Positions 996 through 8,186 of a DNA stretch of 64,000 bases are shown piece after piece. The stretch's first letter is position 1. Each line of letters starts with the position of its first letter. This DNA is from Bacteroidota bacterium (GTDB lineage Bacteria > Bacteroidota > Bacteroidia > UKL13-3). Made by a program: the position numbers and the translations under genes. The stretch lies in NCBI GenBank assembly GCA_040388375.1, contig JAZKBU010000003.1, forward strand, positions 310,001-374,000. Reading direction: 5' to 3'. Below the pieces are notes generated by a model that worked only from the letters and a program-made list of their open reading frames with translations, was not told the DNA's origin and ran no database searches.

Positions 996-2093
996 CTAAG
1001 GGTGCGCAAAAGCTATTTTAGCTTTCACATTATTCATATTTATTTTGCTGCTGCCATTGCTTAAAATACAATTCCATTCTACATCAAAACGATGTGTTGC
1101 TTGGTTTTTTTCGTTAAGCAGATAAGGCTCTTTTGATAATACTTTAAAATAGCTGCTTGCATCCTGTTTGGCTATATTGGAGCGCCAAACCTCTCCGTTT
1201 TTATCCGTATATTCAATAATTACAGTGGAAAACTGTGGTATGTTATGTTCAGGGGTAATAGTAAAATTAAAATTAGCCTTGCAGGCAGTAGTATTAATAG
1301 CTATGTTTTTGCTTACTTCTATTGTTTGGTTTAAGTACACCGTAGTAATGGTAGCTTTTACCAGGTATATACCCGGATTTGTATATTTATGATAAACAGA
1401 TTTACTGCTTGATGTATCACCATCACCCAGTTGCCAGGATATGGTTTTTATATTACTGGTGTCGTTAAAATATATGGATACGTTTTGTGCAGTGTCAGCA
1501 TCAGGAAAAATATTCATATCAGGATAAACTAAATTAATAGTATCTGCATTCATGAATATTTTTTTAGCAATACTTGAAGTACATGCCGTTACCGTATTTG
1601 TACTTTTGTACGTAATAATTGGATTGTTATTGGATGGAAATAATTTTGTTGGGTTGGATAGTGTAGAAGAAGTTCCATCACCAAAATCCCACTGATGAGT
1701 GGTATTTATCGTATCAGCAGCAAAAAAGTTTACTTTATAGTTGGTGGGGTTATCTATGTAATAATTGTAATTGCTGTAACCAAAAATAGAGTCAAAAGCA
1801 AAAGGTACGTTTTTTCCGTTATGGTTATTTCTGATAATTATTTTTAAAGATTCCTTGCAATCAATACATGGTTTTTTGAACTCACTTACATAAGTTATTA
1901 TATCATTGGTTGAATCGTACCCATAGTCGGTAAATAAATAAAAATCATCAATACCCGCTGTTATGTTAAGGTTTTGGCTGTTTACCAACCCTGTTACATT
2001 AAACTCAGGATTACCAGTGTTGCCAACGGGATCAATGTTTTTTTTGCAGGAAACAATGCACATTAGTAATATGTAAACAATATATTTTTTCAT
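996..2093 (-). CDS. PKD-domain lipoprotein, third gene of sigma/anti-sigma operon
   Basis: 365 residues. The N-terminus is a lipoprotein signal (MKKYIVYILLMCIVSC, lipid-modified Cys16 followed by KK), so the mature protein should be membrane-anchored in the envelope. Two PKD-like beta-sandwich modules are visible: one around HQWDFGDGTSSTLSNPT and one around ISWQLGDGDTSSSKSVYHKY, both with the W-x-x-G-D-G turn typical of PKD domains. The remainder is unrecognised. The start ATG is 4 bp beyond the stop of the anti-sigma/beta-barrel gene (2098-3387), so the two are almost certainly co-transcribed with the sigma gene at 3384-3953. The position suggests (inference) a surface or periplasmic partner that modulates the anti-sigma factor, or a structural product made with it. 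PKD domains usually bind protein or carbohydrate ligands. Confidence 0.85.
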   Translation of the reverse strand: MKKYIVYILLMCIVSCKKNIDPVGNTGNPEFNVTGLVNSQNLNITAGIDDFYLFTDYGYDSTNDIITYVSEFKKPCIDCKESLKIIIRNNHNGKNVPFAFDSIFGYSNYNYYIDNPTNYKVNFFAADTINTTHQWDFGDGTSSTLSNPTKLFPSNNNPIITYKSTNTVTACTSSIAKKIFMNADTINLVYPDMNIFPDADTAQNVSIYFNDTSNIKTISWQLGDGDTSSSKSVYHKYTNPGIYLVKATITTVYLNQTIEVSKNIAINTTACKANFNFTITPEHNIPQFSTVIIEYTDKNGEVWRSNIAKQDASSYFKVLSKEPYLLNEKNQATHRFDVEWNCILSNGSSKINMNNVKAKIAFAHP

Positions 2094-2097
2094 GTGC

Positions 2098-3387
2098 TTA
2101 AAATTTGTAGGCGCCTCCTAAACGCAAGCCGATGTTGTTATTGTTATCGGTAACAGAAACATTGGTTAAGCCATAATAAAAACCGGTATTAATAAGCCAG
2201 TTTTGGCGTAAGTAATATTGGTATGATAAATTGATTTGCCAGTCAATATCATTTATATGGTTTCTGTATCCATTTAAATAATCAGTTCTTTCTTTATTTG
2301 ATTCTTTGCTCAGTGTAGTTTTTAAAACTTCAGCAGACTCTATTACATACATAAATGAAATGCCAGCTTGTACACTGTGTTTGGGTGTAATGCAGTAACC
2401 CAACATAAGGGGTATTTCAATATAATCAAGACGAGTGGTTCTCAATTTTTTTATGTTTTCATTCACACCAAAACTATATGTTTTTTCGGTAATAATACGC
2501 TCTTGTTGGTTTTGGTTAATGCGGCTGTAATAGATACCACTGCTTAAAAAAGTTTTAGCACCCATAAAGTATTGGTATTTTAAACCTGCATAAAAATCAA
2601 TGGGATTATACCAAGCGTTGTTTGGGTTGTAGTAAGTTAACCCTGCCTCCAGCCAAACTTGTTGCTGCGCACGCTGCTTTTGTTTTTTATATATTTTATA
2701 AGCTATTGATTTTTCCTGTACGCAAGTATCGCAGGTGTTTAGCTGAACATTAAAGCCAGCTAATTTTTTACTATCCATTAATAAATAATCACTGTTTTGT
2801 TCTTCAATCAGCGCTTCTTTTTCTGCTGGCGATGCAACATCCAATTTGTTTCCATTGGCTAAAGCTGCACTAGCTAATTTTTTATATTTTCTGCTTTGTG
2901 AGTTATTGGAGTTAGCAGTATTACTCATATTATTGGTTTTATCAGGTCGTGTTTTGTAATCCTTTACATTAACAGCAGTTTGTTGTTTGTTAGGTTCCTG
3001 AGTATCATTGCCGGCCTCAGTTGTATTGTTTTTATCTTTTGTGTTTATAGTTGCAGCGTTGTTGTTAGCAGTATTTGTTGATGGTGTAGTATTAGTAGCA
3101 GGGCTATTGTTAGCAGGGGTAGTAGAATGAGATGATGAAGCAACGGTAGCATTGTTATTGTCCGTAGCATCTAATGACATTACATGGTTCCAGGTAACAG
3201 CACTAATAAATGCAATAAACAGCATGGTTAAAAAGAGCAGAAAAAAGCGTTTTCTATTCTTTTTTTGTAAGCGATCGTTGGCAATCATATCCTTTGCCAT
3301 TATCCAGTCGCTTTCCGTAAACTGTATATTTGCATCGTTTCCTTTTTTTCTCAGAAACTCATCAAATAATTCATCTTCCTGTTTCAT
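2098..3387 (-). CDS. Putative dual-membrane-spanning anti-sigma factor with C-terminal outer-membrane beta-barrel
   Basis: 429 residues in four parts. Residues 1-47 are charged and cytoplasm-like, rich in D/E and K/R. Residues 48-66 form one hydrophobic helix (FFLLFLTMLFIAFISAVTW). Residues about 70-180 are low-complexity and rich in N, T, S and A, and should be a disordered periplasmic linker; a CDTC motif follows at 219-222. Residues about 243-429 are alternating aromatic/polar strands typical of a small outer-membrane barrel, ending in the diagnostic C-terminal Phe (GGAYKF). The gene overlaps the ECF sigma gene upstream by 4 bp (ATGA), the usual arrangement for a sigma/anti-sigma pair. The architecture matches the Dma proteins (dual membrane-spanning anti-sigma factors) known from Bacteroides thetaiotaomicron. 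The anti-sigma function is inferred from position and topology, not from a recognised anti-sigma motif. Confidence 0.75.
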   Translation of the reverse strand: MKQEDELFDEFLRKKGNDANIQFTESDWIMAKDMIANDRLQKKNRKRFFLLFLTMLFIAFISAVTWNHVMSLDATDNNNATVASSSHSTTPANNSPATNTTPSTNTANNNAATINTKDKNNTTEAGNDTQEPNKQQTAVNVKDYKTRPDKTNNMSNTANSNNSQSRKYKKLASAALANGNKLDVASPAEKEALIEEQNSDYLLMDSKKLAGFNVQLNTCDTCVQEKSIAYKIYKKQKQRAQQQVWLEAGLTYYNPNNAWYNPIDFYAGLKYQYFMGAKTFLSSGIYYSRINQNQQERIITEKTYSFGVNENIKKLRTTRLDYIEIPLMLGYCITPKHSVQAGISFMYVIESAEVLKTTLSKESNKERTDYLNGYRNHINDIDWQINLSYQYYLRQNWLINTGFYYGLTNVSVTDNNNNIGLRLGGAYKF

Positions 3388-3953
3388 AATACTAACATTT
3401 TAAGCGATGATAAAATAGTACTCAGCTTCTCTTTTAAAAGTGTTCTTGCGTTAGACAAGTGCCACCTTGATGTTCCTTCGCTAATGTTTAATGATAAACT
3501 AATTTCTTTGTGACTCAATCCTTCAAATACATAAAGGTTAAGTACTTCTTTACTCATTTTAGGCAACTTGCCTATTTGAGTTAAAACTTCTTCTGCACTC
3601 AGTTTTTGTTCGGCTTTGTTAATATCGAATGGATGTTCGTTACTACTAAATGTAGAAAAGTCTGTTACCTGCTGATTTTCTCTATATTTTTTATTCATTC
3701 TAAATTCATCAATTATGGAATTTATTAAAATACTTTTTGCCCATTTACTAAATGCCAGTTCATTATTGTATTTTGAAATGTTGTTGAGTATTTTTAGAAA
3801 GCCTTTATTCAGTAAATCCAAGGCATCATCGCGATTGGTACTATATCGGTAACATATAGGCATAAGCAGTGTAAAACACTTTTGATACAAGGCATACTCT
3901 GCCCTTGTATCCTGTTTTTTACATTGTGCTATAATCTCGTTGAGTTCCTGCAT
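3384..3953 (-). CDS. ECF-type RNA polymerase sigma-70 factor
   Basis: 189 residues, normal for an extracytoplasmic-function sigma factor. Region 2 is seen at about residues 15-85 (CFTLLMPICYRYSTNRDDA ... LAFSKWAKSILINSIIDEFR), and region 4 near 130-180 (LPKMSKEVLNLYVFEGLSHK then ISLSLNISEGTSRWHLSNAR), a helix-turn-helix for the -35 element. No region 3 is present. It heads a three-gene operon with the putative anti-sigma/barrel protein (4-bp overlap) and a PKD lipoprotein. A 14-bp-stem hairpin lies between it and the upstream PKD/T9SS gene, so it probably has its own promoter, although no consensus TAnnTTTG box was found in the 65-bp gap. ECF factors of this group often activate their own operon; the target genes cannot be read here. 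Confidence 0.92.
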   Translation of the reverse strand: MQELNEIIAQCKKQDTRAEYALYQKCFTLLMPICYRYSTNRDDALDLLNKGFLKILNNISKYNNELAFSKWAKSILINSIIDEFRMNKKYRENQQVTDFSTFSSNEHPFDINKAEQKLSAEEVLTQIGKLPKMSKEVLNLYVFEGLSHKEISLSLNISEGTSRWHLSNARTLLKEKLSTILSSLKMLVL

Positions 3954-3962
3954 TTACTTATA

Positions 3963-3999
3963 ACAAAAGACAGTAGGAGTTTAGTCTACTGTCTTTTGT
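3963..3999 (-). terminator. Hairpin terminator after the PKD/T9SS gene
   Basis: Perfect 14-bp inverted repeat (3963-3976 with 3986-3999, arm ACAAAAGACAGTAG) with a 9-nt loop, just downstream of the minus-strand gene at 4019. The arm ends in a TCTTTTGTT run on the minus strand. It separates the surface-protein gene from the sigma operon, although partial read-through would couple them. Confidence 0.72.
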
Positions 4000-4018: not shown

Positions 4019-6145
4019 TTACTTGATCATTTTTTTACTTATCCGTCCCTGTTCGTTACTTATTTGTACCATATACATGCCGCCAAATAAATCACTAATA
4101 TCTAATTTAATATTGTTTTGTCCAACATGTGTTGTAAAAGTTTTAGTTAAAAATACTTTTCCGGCCATATCAGTAATACTTACTTCAACCGGTTGGTTGA
4201 ATACACTAAGTAAATCAATGTTCAGTTCATTGTTGGCAGGTATTGGGTACATATTGCTGATGCTCATGCCTTCTACAGTTTTTACTCCTGTGCCTACATT
4301 ATTAATGTGTATACTGTCGCATACTGTTTGGTGGCACGAGTCAATGTTATTCCATACTGTTAAACAAACTTGATACCAGCCATTTGTAGCATATTGATGC
4401 GCTGGATTTTGAGAATTAGACGAGGATCCATCACCAAAATCCCAGAAATAATTAGTGCCGCTTGGTTGAGGATTTAATGTTTGGAAAACACCCACACGTG
4501 AACTGTCTAAGTGGTAATTAAATGCTGCATTACATTTAAATAAACCAGAGTCAACATATATTATTTTGCATTTAGTGTCGTAGCAGGAATCAGTTGTGCT
4601 GGAAATAGTTAAGCAAACAGTAAAATTACCAGCATATGTATAGTAATGAATAGGATGTTGGCTGGTAGAAGTAGTTCCATCACCAAAGTTCCATGAGAAG
4701 TTTATATTATTTCCTGTTGACGTGTTGTTAAAATGTGCTGATGCATTGCTTTGCCAAAAAACGAAATCTGCATGACATGGTTGTGAAGAATCACCTGTTA
4801 CAGTTATTGTTGTACATTTGGTATCTATACAGGTTGAATCAAATGCATTTCTTACCGTTAAGCAAACATTATAAGTGCCGGGTTTAAAAAGGTGTAAATA
4901 GTTGGCGCTTGTTGCTGTCCATCCATCGCCAAAATTCCAATAGTACAATAAGTTGTTACCAGTGCTGCTTGTTGCATTAAACAAACAAGGGTAATCGTTA
5001 AAATTAACTTTTTGTGGGTTTAACGAGTAGGTGAAATTAGCATGGCATGGGGTATTACCTGCACTTATCACTATGGTTGAACATTTGGTATTGGTGCAGG
5101 TAGAGTCTAATAAGTTTCTAACGGTTAAACAAACATTGTAAGTACCCGGTAAAGTAAATGTTTTATTCGGGTTCATGGTAGTAGAAGTAGTACCATCGCC
5201 AAAGTTCCAGTAATATCCTAAGTTATTACCTGTTGATGTATTGTTAAAATAGAAAACATTATTAATGGTGTCTCTGTAATAAGTAAACTTAGCCACACAT
5301 GGTATGTTTGCAGCAGGTATAGTAATGGTTGAACACTTGGTATGGTAACAATTAGAATCCAATAAATTTTGTACCGTTAAGCAAACAGTGTAAGTACCCG
5401 GTGTAAATGTTTTAGTTGGGTTCATTGCTGTAGAAGTGCTGTTGTTTCCAAATGTCCAGTAATAAGCTAAGTTACTGCCGCTTGACGAATTAATGAAATG
5501 AACATTATTTAAACTATCTCTAGAATAAGTAAAATTAGCTATACATGGTTGGTTGTTACCATTGGTAACAACAATGGTAGAGCATTTTGTGCTGTAGCAG
5601 GTAGAGTCAAACGCACCACGTATAGTTAAACAAACAGTATAAGTTCCGGGATTAGCATACGCATGGCTTGGGTTTTGCAAGGTAGAGCCTGTACTATCAC
5701 CAAACGTCCAGGTATATAATAAATTAGTGCCGGTAGAAGTATTGTTAAAATACACCGTACTGTTTATGGTATCTTTAAAGTAATTGAAATTAGCCGTGCA
5801 CGGGCTTGAAGGCGTTAAATAAAGTACGGTACAAAAAGTATCATTACATACACCTGGTTTGGTTACACGGTGGCAAACCATATAGGTGCCATAATTAACA
5901 TAAGTTTTAGTCGGGTTTCTGGTTATGCCTGTACTTCCATCACCAAATGTCCAGAAGTGTTGTACTGTACTGTCGTAATTGGTGCTGTTAAAGTTAACTG
6001 TTTTGTTGGCAGTGCCTGTGCCAACCAAAGAGGTGTAATAAGGATTACAAGTTTGTGCCTTAAGTGTGCTTGTGTTTAAAAACAAAGCACAATAAACTAG
6101 CAGTGCCATACAATAAGTGAAGGGTAGTTTGATTATTTTTTTCAT
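4019..6145 (-). CDS. Secreted protein with seven PKD repeats and T9SS type A sorting domain
   Basis: 708 residues. A signal peptide (residues 1-30, ending SSTLKAQ-like TLKAQ) is followed by seven tandem PKD domains of about 82 residues. Each has a W-x-F-G-D/N core (for example YTWTFGDSTGSTLQNPSHAY, YYWNFGDGTTSTTMNPNKTF, YFWDFGDGSSSNSQNPAHQY) and a C-T-x-x-x-x-V-x-N pattern; paired cysteines recur in each unit, suggesting a disulfide per domain. The last 75 residues form a type A T9SS sorting domain (MYPIPANNELNIDL ... GGMYMVQISNEQGRISKKMI). The product should be exported by Sec, moved across the outer membrane by T9SS and attached to the surface or released. No catalytic domain is seen, so it is probably adhesive or structural. 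It lies directly upstream of the sigma/anti-sigma/PKD-lipoprotein operon on the same strand. Confidence 0.9.
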   Translation of the reverse strand: MKKIIKLPFTYCMALLVYCALFLNTSTLKAQTCNPYYTSLVGTGTANKTVNFNSTNYDSTVQHFWTFGDGSTGITRNPTKTYVNYGTYMVCHRVTKPGVCNDTFCTVLYLTPSSPCTANFNYFKDTINSTVYFNNTSTGTNLLYTWTFGDSTGSTLQNPSHAYANPGTYTVCLTIRGAFDSTCYSTKCSTIVVTNGNNQPCIANFTYSRDSLNNVHFINSSSGSNLAYYWTFGNNSTSTAMNPTKTFTPGTYTVCLTVQNLLDSNCYHTKCSTITIPAANIPCVAKFTYYRDTINNVFYFNNTSTGNNLGYYWNFGDGTTSTTMNPNKTFTLPGTYNVCLTVRNLLDSTCTNTKCSTIVISAGNTPCHANFTYSLNPQKVNFNDYPCLFNATSSTGNNLLYYWNFGDGWTATSANYLHLFKPGTYNVCLTVRNAFDSTCIDTKCTTITVTGDSSQPCHADFVFWQSNASAHFNNTSTGNNINFSWNFGDGTTSTSQHPIHYYTYAGNFTVCLTISSTTDSCYDTKCKIIYVDSGLFKCNAAFNYHLDSSRVGVFQTLNPQPSGTNYFWDFGDGSSSNSQNPAHQYATNGWYQVCLTVWNNIDSCHQTVCDSIHINNVGTGVKTVEGMSISNMYPIPANNELNIDLLSVFNQPVEVSITDMAGKVFLTKTFTTHVGQNNIKLDISDLFGGMYMVQISNEQGRISKKMIK

Positions 6146-6327
6146 ATAATAATTGATTAATTGTTCTTTCTGTTATTGGGTACGTATGCGTATGGCGTAT
6201 GTGTTGGGTTTTTAGAAAAATAAAATGTAAAAAAATATTGTTTTGGTTGAAAGTGAGCTAGGTAATAATAACAATATTTCCGGTGAAGGTGTAGTCAACC
6301 CATTGAGACTAACAATTGAAATAAAAA
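6146..6327. other. Upstream region of the PKD/T9SS gene
   Basis: AT-rich non-coding stretch holding the promoter region of the 4019-6145 gene. The only internal structure noticed is a short run of GTATG units (about 6180-6200, three copies spaced 6-7 bp). No TAnnTTTG box with proper spacing was found, which would be consistent with, but does not show, use of an alternative sigma factor. Confidence 0.4.
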
Positions 6328-7191: not shown

Positions 7192-7863
7192 TTAGTCGTG
7201 GAAAAACCGGCTATTGCGAAATGTTTTAGGTGTGTTTAACTTTTCAGCCTTAAATATAAGATTGGTGGTTTGTTGCATTTGGCTGGCAACCGCAGGCAAA
7301 TACTCATTGTTTGTTAAACGTACTGTAGGTATTTGAGCTTGCTTAAATAAATCAGTAAAACCTTTATCCATACTCGAACTATAAATAACAGCATTGCTAA
7401 AATACCTTTTAATGAGTTGTATTAGCTCATGCATGGAAGCATTGGAGCAATCGTTAGTATGGCACTGAATGCCAATAAAAATAGTTCCCTTGGTTTTTAG
7501 TTTAAAACACAGTTGAATAAGGTAAGTTTCAATATCTCTTTCATGTAGCGTAGTGGAATAAAATAAAGTATCAACCGATTCGTTAAAAACAATTTGTTTT
7601 TCTTTAGGTGCTGTTAAGTAGTAAACAAGCAAATCACCTGTGTAAGTCAGCTGTTTTATGTTATTGTATTTATTTGTTTCCTTGCTTAGTGTATGGCTAT
7701 GGTTTAACCAAAAAACATCTTGTCCTTTAGGTAGTTCGTTTTGAATAAATTTTTCGTGCAGTTGCGCAGGCGAAATAAAATGGTTGCTGAAAACCATTGA
7801 TGCGATTACTTTTTTAAAGAATAAGCGAACATCATTTAATAGTAAGTTGAACTCATAGACCAT
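7192..7863 (-). CDS. Unrecognised protein, possibly a degenerate methyltransferase-fold partner
   Basis: 223 residues, no signal peptide or membrane segment. I do not recognise a family. The middle part (about residues 85-130: VDTLFYSTTLHERDIETYLI then QLCFKLKTKGTIFIGIQ) resembles the motif IV to motif VI region of class I methyltransferases (acidic strand, helix, L-K-x-K-G strand). A glycine-rich SAM loop (motif I, D/E-x-G-x-G) is absent, so SAM binding is unlikely. The gene sits directly upstream of an intact methyltransferase on the same strand with a 21-bp gap, suggesting a paired or accessory role (inference). It may equally be an unrelated Bacteroidota-specific protein. Composition is like its neighbours. 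Confidence 0.7.
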   Translation of the reverse strand: MVYEFNLLLNDVRLFFKKVIASMVFSNHFISPAQLHEKFIQNELPKGQDVFWLNHSHTLSKETNKYNNIKQLTYTGDLLVYYLTAPKEKQIVFNESVDTLFYSTTLHERDIETYLIQLCFKLKTKGTIFIGIQCHTNDCSNASMHELIQLIKRYFSNAVIYSSSMDKGFTDLFKQAQIPTVRLTNNEYLPAVASQMQQTTNLIFKAEKLNTPKTFRNSRFFHD

Positions 7864-8186
7864 AACATATACGTATTAGTAAGTATGTAGCTGTTATAAA
7901 TAAAAACTATATACCATTAGGTTAATTAATTTTATTAGTAATTACATCATTAAAATAAATAGTTCTGTTTCTATAAAATGCTGGTACGTTAACTTATAAA
8001 GTTATGTTGGGTTTTTGAGTAATAATTATTTCTTAACAGAATAGTTTCTGCTAATTTTTAAAAAAATGGATGTGCGCTGTCTCAAAGCGAACAACATAGG
8101 GTATGATAGTACATAAAAAATAAGGCAAGTTTCAGATTTTATAATGATAAAAAACGTCCGACATTTGTATAGTAAAAGCTCAGAAA
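7864..8186. other. 323-bp divergent intergenic region
   Basis: Very AT-rich spacer between the divergent genes at 7863 (minus) and 8187 (plus); it must hold promoters for both. A degenerate -7 box GACATTTG at 8160-8167, 19 bp before the Ada-like start, is the best plus-strand candidate (one mismatch to TAnnTTTG, no good -33). No small gene, RNA gene or repeat was recognised. Confidence 0.5.

Follow-up and report, generated by a model that had tools for sequence, protein, structure and literature searches.

In the window, that is, the whole stretch of 64,000 nucleotides analysed here, two overlapping genes probably encode an ECF sigma factor and a Dma/Reo-type anti-sigma factor acting in an autoregulated relay from the outer membrane to the cytoplasm, in which we infer the sigma binding, the signal and the release. 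Judged from sequence comparisons, the pair is a real member of the published Dma/Reo kind of dual-membrane anti-sigma systems of Bacteroidota, and a downstream gene for a PKD lipoprotein appears to be its conserved third member, the new part being this lipoprotein and the operon around it. Triads, defined as sigma, anti-sigma and PKD lipoprotein genes in this order, also appear to have a common promoter-like signature (CCAAC-N17-CGT), of which the window has an N18 version. The lipoprotein gene, the T9SS/PKD gene on the other side of the pair and the promoter-like signature all lie outside the coordinates of the original prediction and were missed there. In the literature searched, no published description of a PKD-lipoprotein arrangement beside a Dma-type pair was found, and the work on Dma/Reo proteins concerned gut Bacteroidales only, though one paper calls the family Bacteroidota-wide.

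Table 1. Predicted features of the locus (positions in the window)
Feature	Position	Strand	Details
PKD protein gene, putative conserved third gene	996..2093	minus	365 aa; lipobox Cys16
Predicted Dma/Reo-type dual-membrane anti-sigma factor, whole gene	2098..3387	minus	429 aa
Residues 241-429, predicted 8-strand outer-membrane barrel	2101..2667	minus	Pfam, AF2 model, Foldseek
Residues 67-240, mostly disordered linker	2668..3189	minus	174 residues, 42% N+T+S+Q
Residues 48-66, predicted inner-membrane helix	3190..3246	minus	Hydrophobicity and AF2 model
Residues 1-47, predicted cytoplasmic anti-sigma module	3247..3387	minus	Trp28 invariant in alignments A1 and A4
ECF sigma factor gene	3384..3953	minus	189 aa
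Hairpin between T9SS/PKD gene and sigma gene	3963..3999	minus	z -6.5
Secreted T9SS/PKD protein gene	4019..6145	minus	708 aa; 7 PKD stretches, T9SS type A sorting domain
ECF-type promoter-like site CCAAC-N18-CGTA	6181..6207	minus	36 bases before ATG of T9SS/PKD gene

The sigma gene and its predicted dual-membrane neighbour

The 189-aa protein matches sigma region 2 (3.5e-11) and region 4 (2.9e-11) in Pfam, and bases 3384-3387 are common to its gene and the 429-aa gene, in agreement with the original prediction of an ECF sigma gene overlapping its neighbour by 4 bp. The pairing is not due to chance, the same gene order being found again in relatives.

The layout first proposed for the 429-residue product (a cytoplasmic N-terminus, a helix at 48-66, a linker and a barrel ending in Phe) agrees with the results of Pfam, AF2 and Foldseek. 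Residues 48-66 form the most hydrophobic 19-residue stretch of the protein and are directly preceded by KKNRKR (residues 42-47), so the N-terminus should be inside. The Pfam family OMP_b-brl_2 (PF13568) was matched at residues 263-410 (E 1.8e-12; 48.1 bits, cut-off 27), and the final residue is Phe. Structure prediction of the full protein, which had been suggested as a check, yielded an AF2 model (34 sequences, mean pLDDT 73) with helices at 4-18 and 25-72, a disordered linker (pLDDT below 50 at residues 76-131, 140-182 and 212-236) and eight barrel strands within 242-428, for which the ten-residue pLDDT means are 81-98. Among the best Foldseek matches are OmpA, Ail, OmpX and NspA, all barrels of 8 strands (E 5.5e-9 to 1.7e-5), and the modelled barrel is thus predicted to be OmpA/OmpX-like with 8 strands. 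When the whole protein was compared with solved structures by phmmer, 0 matches were obtained at E up to 1, and the profile of the window family (A1) gave one match only, to a sodium channel (E 0.057). A CDTC motif is present in the linker before the barrel (residues 218-221) in the window protein and that of its closest relative, L004, only; the other ten A1 rows are without it, and the aligned lipoproteins described below (A3) carry a conserved CxxC.

The cytoplasmic part was compared with ten proteins (alignment A5) that were assigned as Dma/Reo-type from their layout and neighbours rather than by name. Nine of them come from presumed Bacteroidales genomes and the tenth, L158, from a genome titled Dysgonamonadaceae; 'Bacteroidales' was presumed from NigD genes, which were found in 6 of the 198 genomes of the class and, among 14 controls, in Bacteroides ihuae only. 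By hhalign, A1 and A5 matched at 98.6% (E 5.6e-16, columns 2-72). All ten A5 proteins adjoin ECF sigma genes, a DUF4943 gene lies downstream at two of the ten loci (4.7e-49 and 3.7e-47), and nigD genes adjoin two of the ten proteins; the two nigD-adjacent loci would fit the expectation for EcfO-Reo or Dma1, the Dma2-like or Reo-like assignment being drawn from the neighbours. The profile match and these neighbour genes together indicate that residues 1-47 correspond to the known Dma/Reo module. The suggestion of a possibly new type of cytoplasmic part is thereby contradicted, and it is also countered by the occurrence of the same module on many further Bacteroidota proteins encoded next to ECF sigma genes. 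Among these are proteins of about 237-265 aa (L064, L066, L068, L069 and L072), in which the match to profile A1 is confined to its N-terminal part. Over residues 1-47, no Pfam or NCBIfam model scored above its own cut-off. ZAS anti-sigma factors carry HxxxCxxC in the cytoplasmic part; the absence of a classical zinc anti-sigma motif noted earlier was confirmed, because residues 1-47 contain no Cys or His.

A barrel profile built from window relatives matched 10/10 A5 proteins, 29/36 farther relatives (A9) and 0/56 neighbouring genes, with E-values computed for these small sets; the A9 and A5 rows and the 56 neighbouring genes were outside the training set, in which 23 of the 36 rows of A8 were also included. 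By Pfam alone, PF13568 was found in 20/36 and 17/36 of two 36-row relative sets. Several variants of the architecture were observed. In L180 (3788-5065, a MAG titled Chlorobiota), an anti-sigma protein has the same N-terminal module and helix, with two PKD stretches replacing the barrel and a CHU_C type IX domain match of 25.5 bits, below the cut-off of 27. The N-terminal part of the anti-sigma protein at L131 (5561-6305) looks like several tandem Trp-containing modules, and at L192 (391-2031) a sigma factor is fused directly to the helix and barrel, like the published Dma3.

The first paper on Dma proteins reportedly appeared in PNAS in 2024. As described in PMC13088901, Dma1 and Dma2 of B. 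thetaiotaomicron consist of an N-terminal anti-sigma domain, an inner-membrane helix, a disordered tether and a C-terminal barrel, and adjoin an ECF sigma gene; the window pair has the same N-terminal module, helix, long disordered tether, barrel and sigma neighbour. The likeness to Dma proteins of Bacteroides that was pointed out earlier is thus upheld, and with it the view that one polypeptide could link surface and cytoplasm. According to the same source, dma2 lies in a three-gene operon with a DUF4943 gene, bt_1557, which is strongly increased in a dma2 mutant (log2 6.0), whereas the third gene in the window encodes a PKD lipoprotein. Further differences from Dma1/Dma2 are that the window sigma and the presumed Bacteroidales partners belong to different subgroups and that a common promoter-like signature was found for the triads. 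Reo, of the EcfO-Reo system of Bacteroides fragilis and Phocaeicola vulgatus, is described in PMC9308784 and PMC13114119 as spanning from cytoplasm to surface and is proposed there to respond to outer-membrane stress, and the lipoprotein genes nigD belong to the EcfO regulon (PMC13114119). A spanning anti-sigma factor and linked lipoprotein genes are therefore features of both systems, but nigD is divergent in the Reo-like loci examined, whereas the PKD lipoprotein gene of the window is directly downstream. Dma3, which according to PMC13088901 has a sigma-like domain at the N-terminus of a barrel protein, presents the same outer-membrane-to-cytoplasm layout, whereas the window has one gene for sigma and another for anti-sigma.

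A conserved PKD lipoprotein gene

Matches were obtained in 18 of the 58 genomes searched (the window's own included), and sigma, anti-sigma and lipoprotein genes were found in order at 14 of the 22 loci from these genome searches; in this set, the window's genus is represented by 10 genomes, all 10 with the full triad. A second copy with unchanged gene order is located on contig C5 of the window's genome. Of the other genomes searched, G007 alone has a close orthologue of the window copy (48% identity), and the remaining genus members carry copies resembling the C5 one. By use of a sigma profile, 80 named loci were collected, with titles naming Saprospiraceae, Flavobacteriales, Chitinophagales, Crocinitomicaceae, Pedobacter and others; these are the best 80 of 592 confirmed sigma matches and are therefore biased to close sigma relatives. 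Within this best 80 of 592, the lipoprotein follows the anti-sigma factor at 31/36 nearer loci (L103-L141) vs 0/37 farther ones (L142-L182), a boundary that was drawn after the result had been seen; at the other 5/36 nearer loci the lipoprotein was not seen. The 36 and 37 are loci with a complete second gene, in which the third gene was sought within 200 bases, and L146, among the 37, ends before any third gene position. Seven named loci are outside both sets, four ending at the sigma gene and three having a cut second gene, and the loci include near-copies (L104/L105; L009, identical to L109; L018, near L134).

Ten aligned lipoproteins (A3) have in common the lipobox Cys16, Cys76, Cys79 and PKD-core residues, and the window lipoprotein matches PKD in Pfam, with no match in NCBIfam. 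When A3 was used to search the phylum, matches listed from outside the protein's own triads fell within profile positions 97-312, around the PKD part. The phylum searches scored at most 4 or 5 candidates per genome (at most 5 with A3), and a full-length lipoprotein relative in G100 was missed by the A3 search and found as L044; their tallies are therefore lower bounds. In L108, L115, L117, L118 and L137, the lipoprotein gene is followed by a fourth gene of about 360 aa, whose products resemble one another at both termini.

In a quickly built tree of 132 sigma proteins, which has long branches and rows sampled by similarity to the window's sigma, all 40 triad sigmas are included in one 54-row group (SH-aLRT 96); its other 14 rows come from loci where the lipoprotein was not observed or the contig is cut. 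Over the tree as a whole, the triad label requires 12 changes (by starred branches, at least 5). With regard to a possible assignment to sigma group ECF21, a larger group of 116 rows (SH-aLRT 97) unites triads, pairs and the presumed Bacteroidales Dma partners, with the window sigma and these partners in separate subgroups; outside it are 7 other presumed Bacteroidales ECFs and 9 ECFs from the window's own genome, two of which (L030 and L036) adjoin genes with a weak match to A1 or A4. The fusion L192 groups among the presumed Bacteroidales Dma partners.

Evolutionary distances of the individual parts were compared over 25 of 31 triads, L105, L113, L118 and L127 having been left out by hand and L103 and L124 for short lipoproteins. 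The correlation between barrel and lipoprotein (r 0.83, permutation maximum 0.27) is the highest raw r among all part pairs and remains at a partial r of 0.68 and 0.70 given sigma or the N-terminus. The other raw values are 0.75 for N-terminus and lipoprotein, 0.69 both for sigma and lipoprotein and for sigma and barrel, 0.65 for sigma and N-terminus, and 0.63 for N-terminus and barrel. This co-variation suggests that barrel and lipoprotein may touch.

For L105, whose sigma and inhibitor genes form a natural in-frame pair, both proteins were modelled together as a single chain, read through the stop codon (pTM 0.71, mean pLDDT 78), and the model has two helices in the inhibitor part. Its sigma part aligned with RsiW-bound SigW at Z 13.4 (rmsd 4.6 over 155); SigW, CnrH and RpoE-NepR aligned at rmsd 4.6-5.2 over 147-155 residues, SigK-RskA at 7.8 over 147, AlgU-MucA and sigmaE-RseA over one domain only, and several RNA-polymerase-bound sigmas at about 26. 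This fold search tests the sigma part only, because no row covers the anti-sigma helices as a whole. The model is compatible with a sigma factor in the inhibited shape and is weakly informative, some inhibitor-bound sigmas fitting less well.

Promoter-like signature and the T9SS gene

Blocks of ACCCAAC and CGTA are common to the upstream regions of the C5-like copies, and AAC-N16/17-CGT was found at -74 to -86 in 11/12 triads from genome searches. Among the named triads, 30 upstream regions were used (L107, with 109 bases upstream, was excluded), and CCAAC-N17-CGT occurs at most 250 bases before sigma in 20/30 (shuffle mean 0.04, maximum 1), with no other spacing from 8 to 29 found more than once; the motif had been read from genus copies, and this wider N17 form was picked after matches had been seen. 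The form CCAACN{15,18}CGTA, which had been settled on before any inspection of the named triads, was present in 7/30 (shuffle mean 0.1). For comparison, CCAAC-N17-CGT was found in 2/41 of the farther set and at 2/5 nearer loci without the lipoprotein.

The signature that marks the window's site was derived from other operons. The T9SS/PKD gene behind this site is presumed to be the first gene of the unit, and L109, L112, L129 and L133 have the same arrangement of signature, T9SS-tailed gene and then sigma, the sole match in about 4.9 kb preceding the T9SS-tailed gene. The whole window contains 3 matches of CCAACN{15,18}CGTA vs 1.08 expected, and 10/100 shuffles reach 3, so the weight of the site lies in its position rather than in the count. 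In the whole genome, MCCCAACN{16,18}CGTA gave 11 sites vs 8 for a reversed control and CCAACCN{15,16}CGTA 10 sites vs 13 for the reversed pattern; no regulon is therefore readable from the own-genome sites. Three of the 11 sites lie at most 60 bases before a gene: one before the T9SS/PKD gene of the window, one before the paralogous sigma gene and one, on contig C7, before a gene for a T9SS-tailed protein. This protein (L223, 599-2215) has 538 aa and a T9SS type A tail, with the signature 38 bases upstream. A second ACCCAAC-N-CGTA site is located at 7985-8012 of the window, 122 bases before an ORF (7192-7863, minus strand) in which Pfam finds no domain at E up to 0.01; chance alone would place about one such site in the window.

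A T9SS neighbour was considered as a general mark of the triads and rejected, since it was found for 5/18 usable upstream genes in triads vs 6/20 in the farther set (usable genes being available from 31 triads and 41 farther loci, respectively). In the triads, 8/18 downstream genes match T9SS, a count that has no control set. A hairpin like that between the T9SS/PKD and sigma genes occurs at the same place in the closest relative, L004 (z -5.2). The terminator scan accepts the window's hairpin on the plus strand only, and it is not terminator-like on the coding strand.

Proposed relay and alternative explanations

In the relay considered probable here, residues 1-47 would hold sigma at the inner membrane, while the barrel in the outer membrane would sense a condition of the surface or of that membrane; the odds that the lipoprotein is its partner, possibly a subunit, are about even. 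A change at the barrel may then be passed through linker and helix, and sigma would be freed by pulling, conformational change or proteolysis. Free sigma would transcribe its own unit from a promoter of the CCAAC-N17-CGT type, raising the T9SS/PKD surface protein, sigma, the inhibitor and the lipoprotein, and owing to the hairpin that separates sigma from the first gene, the regulators may be made in smaller amounts than the surface protein. A more elaborate, three-part version is considered unlikely: the PKD lipoprotein would dock on the Dma barrel as the true sensor or gate and would report whether the PKD surface protein of the same unit, exported by T9SS, has arrived or folded. If this were true, one chain would couple type IX cargo at the surface to cytoplasmic sigma release.

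The main alternative to such a sensing role keeps the Dma/Reo-type pair and regards the lipoprotein merely as a target gene of sigma; within the probability given to the Dma/Reo-type pair, we put the share of this reading at roughly one half. Precedents are the known targets nigD and the DUF4943 gene bt_1557 (PMC13114119 and PMC13088901), and the lipoprotein is missing from 5/36 nearer loci. However, triads of differently named groups have retained the lipoprotein, whose distances correlate more highly with those of the barrel (raw r 0.83) than with those of sigma (raw r 0.69). It is very unlikely that the barrel protein is an outer-membrane protein simply made with the unit, its N-terminal part being only an uncleaved signal anchor. 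Although the lack of any Pfam or NCBIfam model above cut-off for residues 1-47 would agree with an anchor, the N-terminal part is precisely what is common with Dma/Reo-type proteins, and the module also occurs beside ECF sigma genes on the proteins of about 237-265 aa. In FecI/FecR and ZAS systems, an ECF sigma gene followed by the inhibitor gene is the usual order, as it is here, but FecI/FecR-like signalling with a TonB-dependent transducer, or a zinc anti-sigma factor, is scarcely plausible for the window: no FecR-type anti-sigma factor was matched in Pfam at E up to 1, the cytoplasmic residues lack Cys and His, and the barrel is on the same chain.

With respect to the cue sensed by Dma/Reo barrels, the conservation of a lipoprotein with the barrel points to a specific candidate partner in sensing, and regulons of uncultured Bacteroidota could be sought by means of the promoter-like signature. 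In L112, from Phaeodactylibacter luteus KCTC 42180, the T9SS gene, sigma, anti-sigma and lipoprotein genes are found together, and since this locus belongs to a named strain, the four-gene arrangement can be tested.
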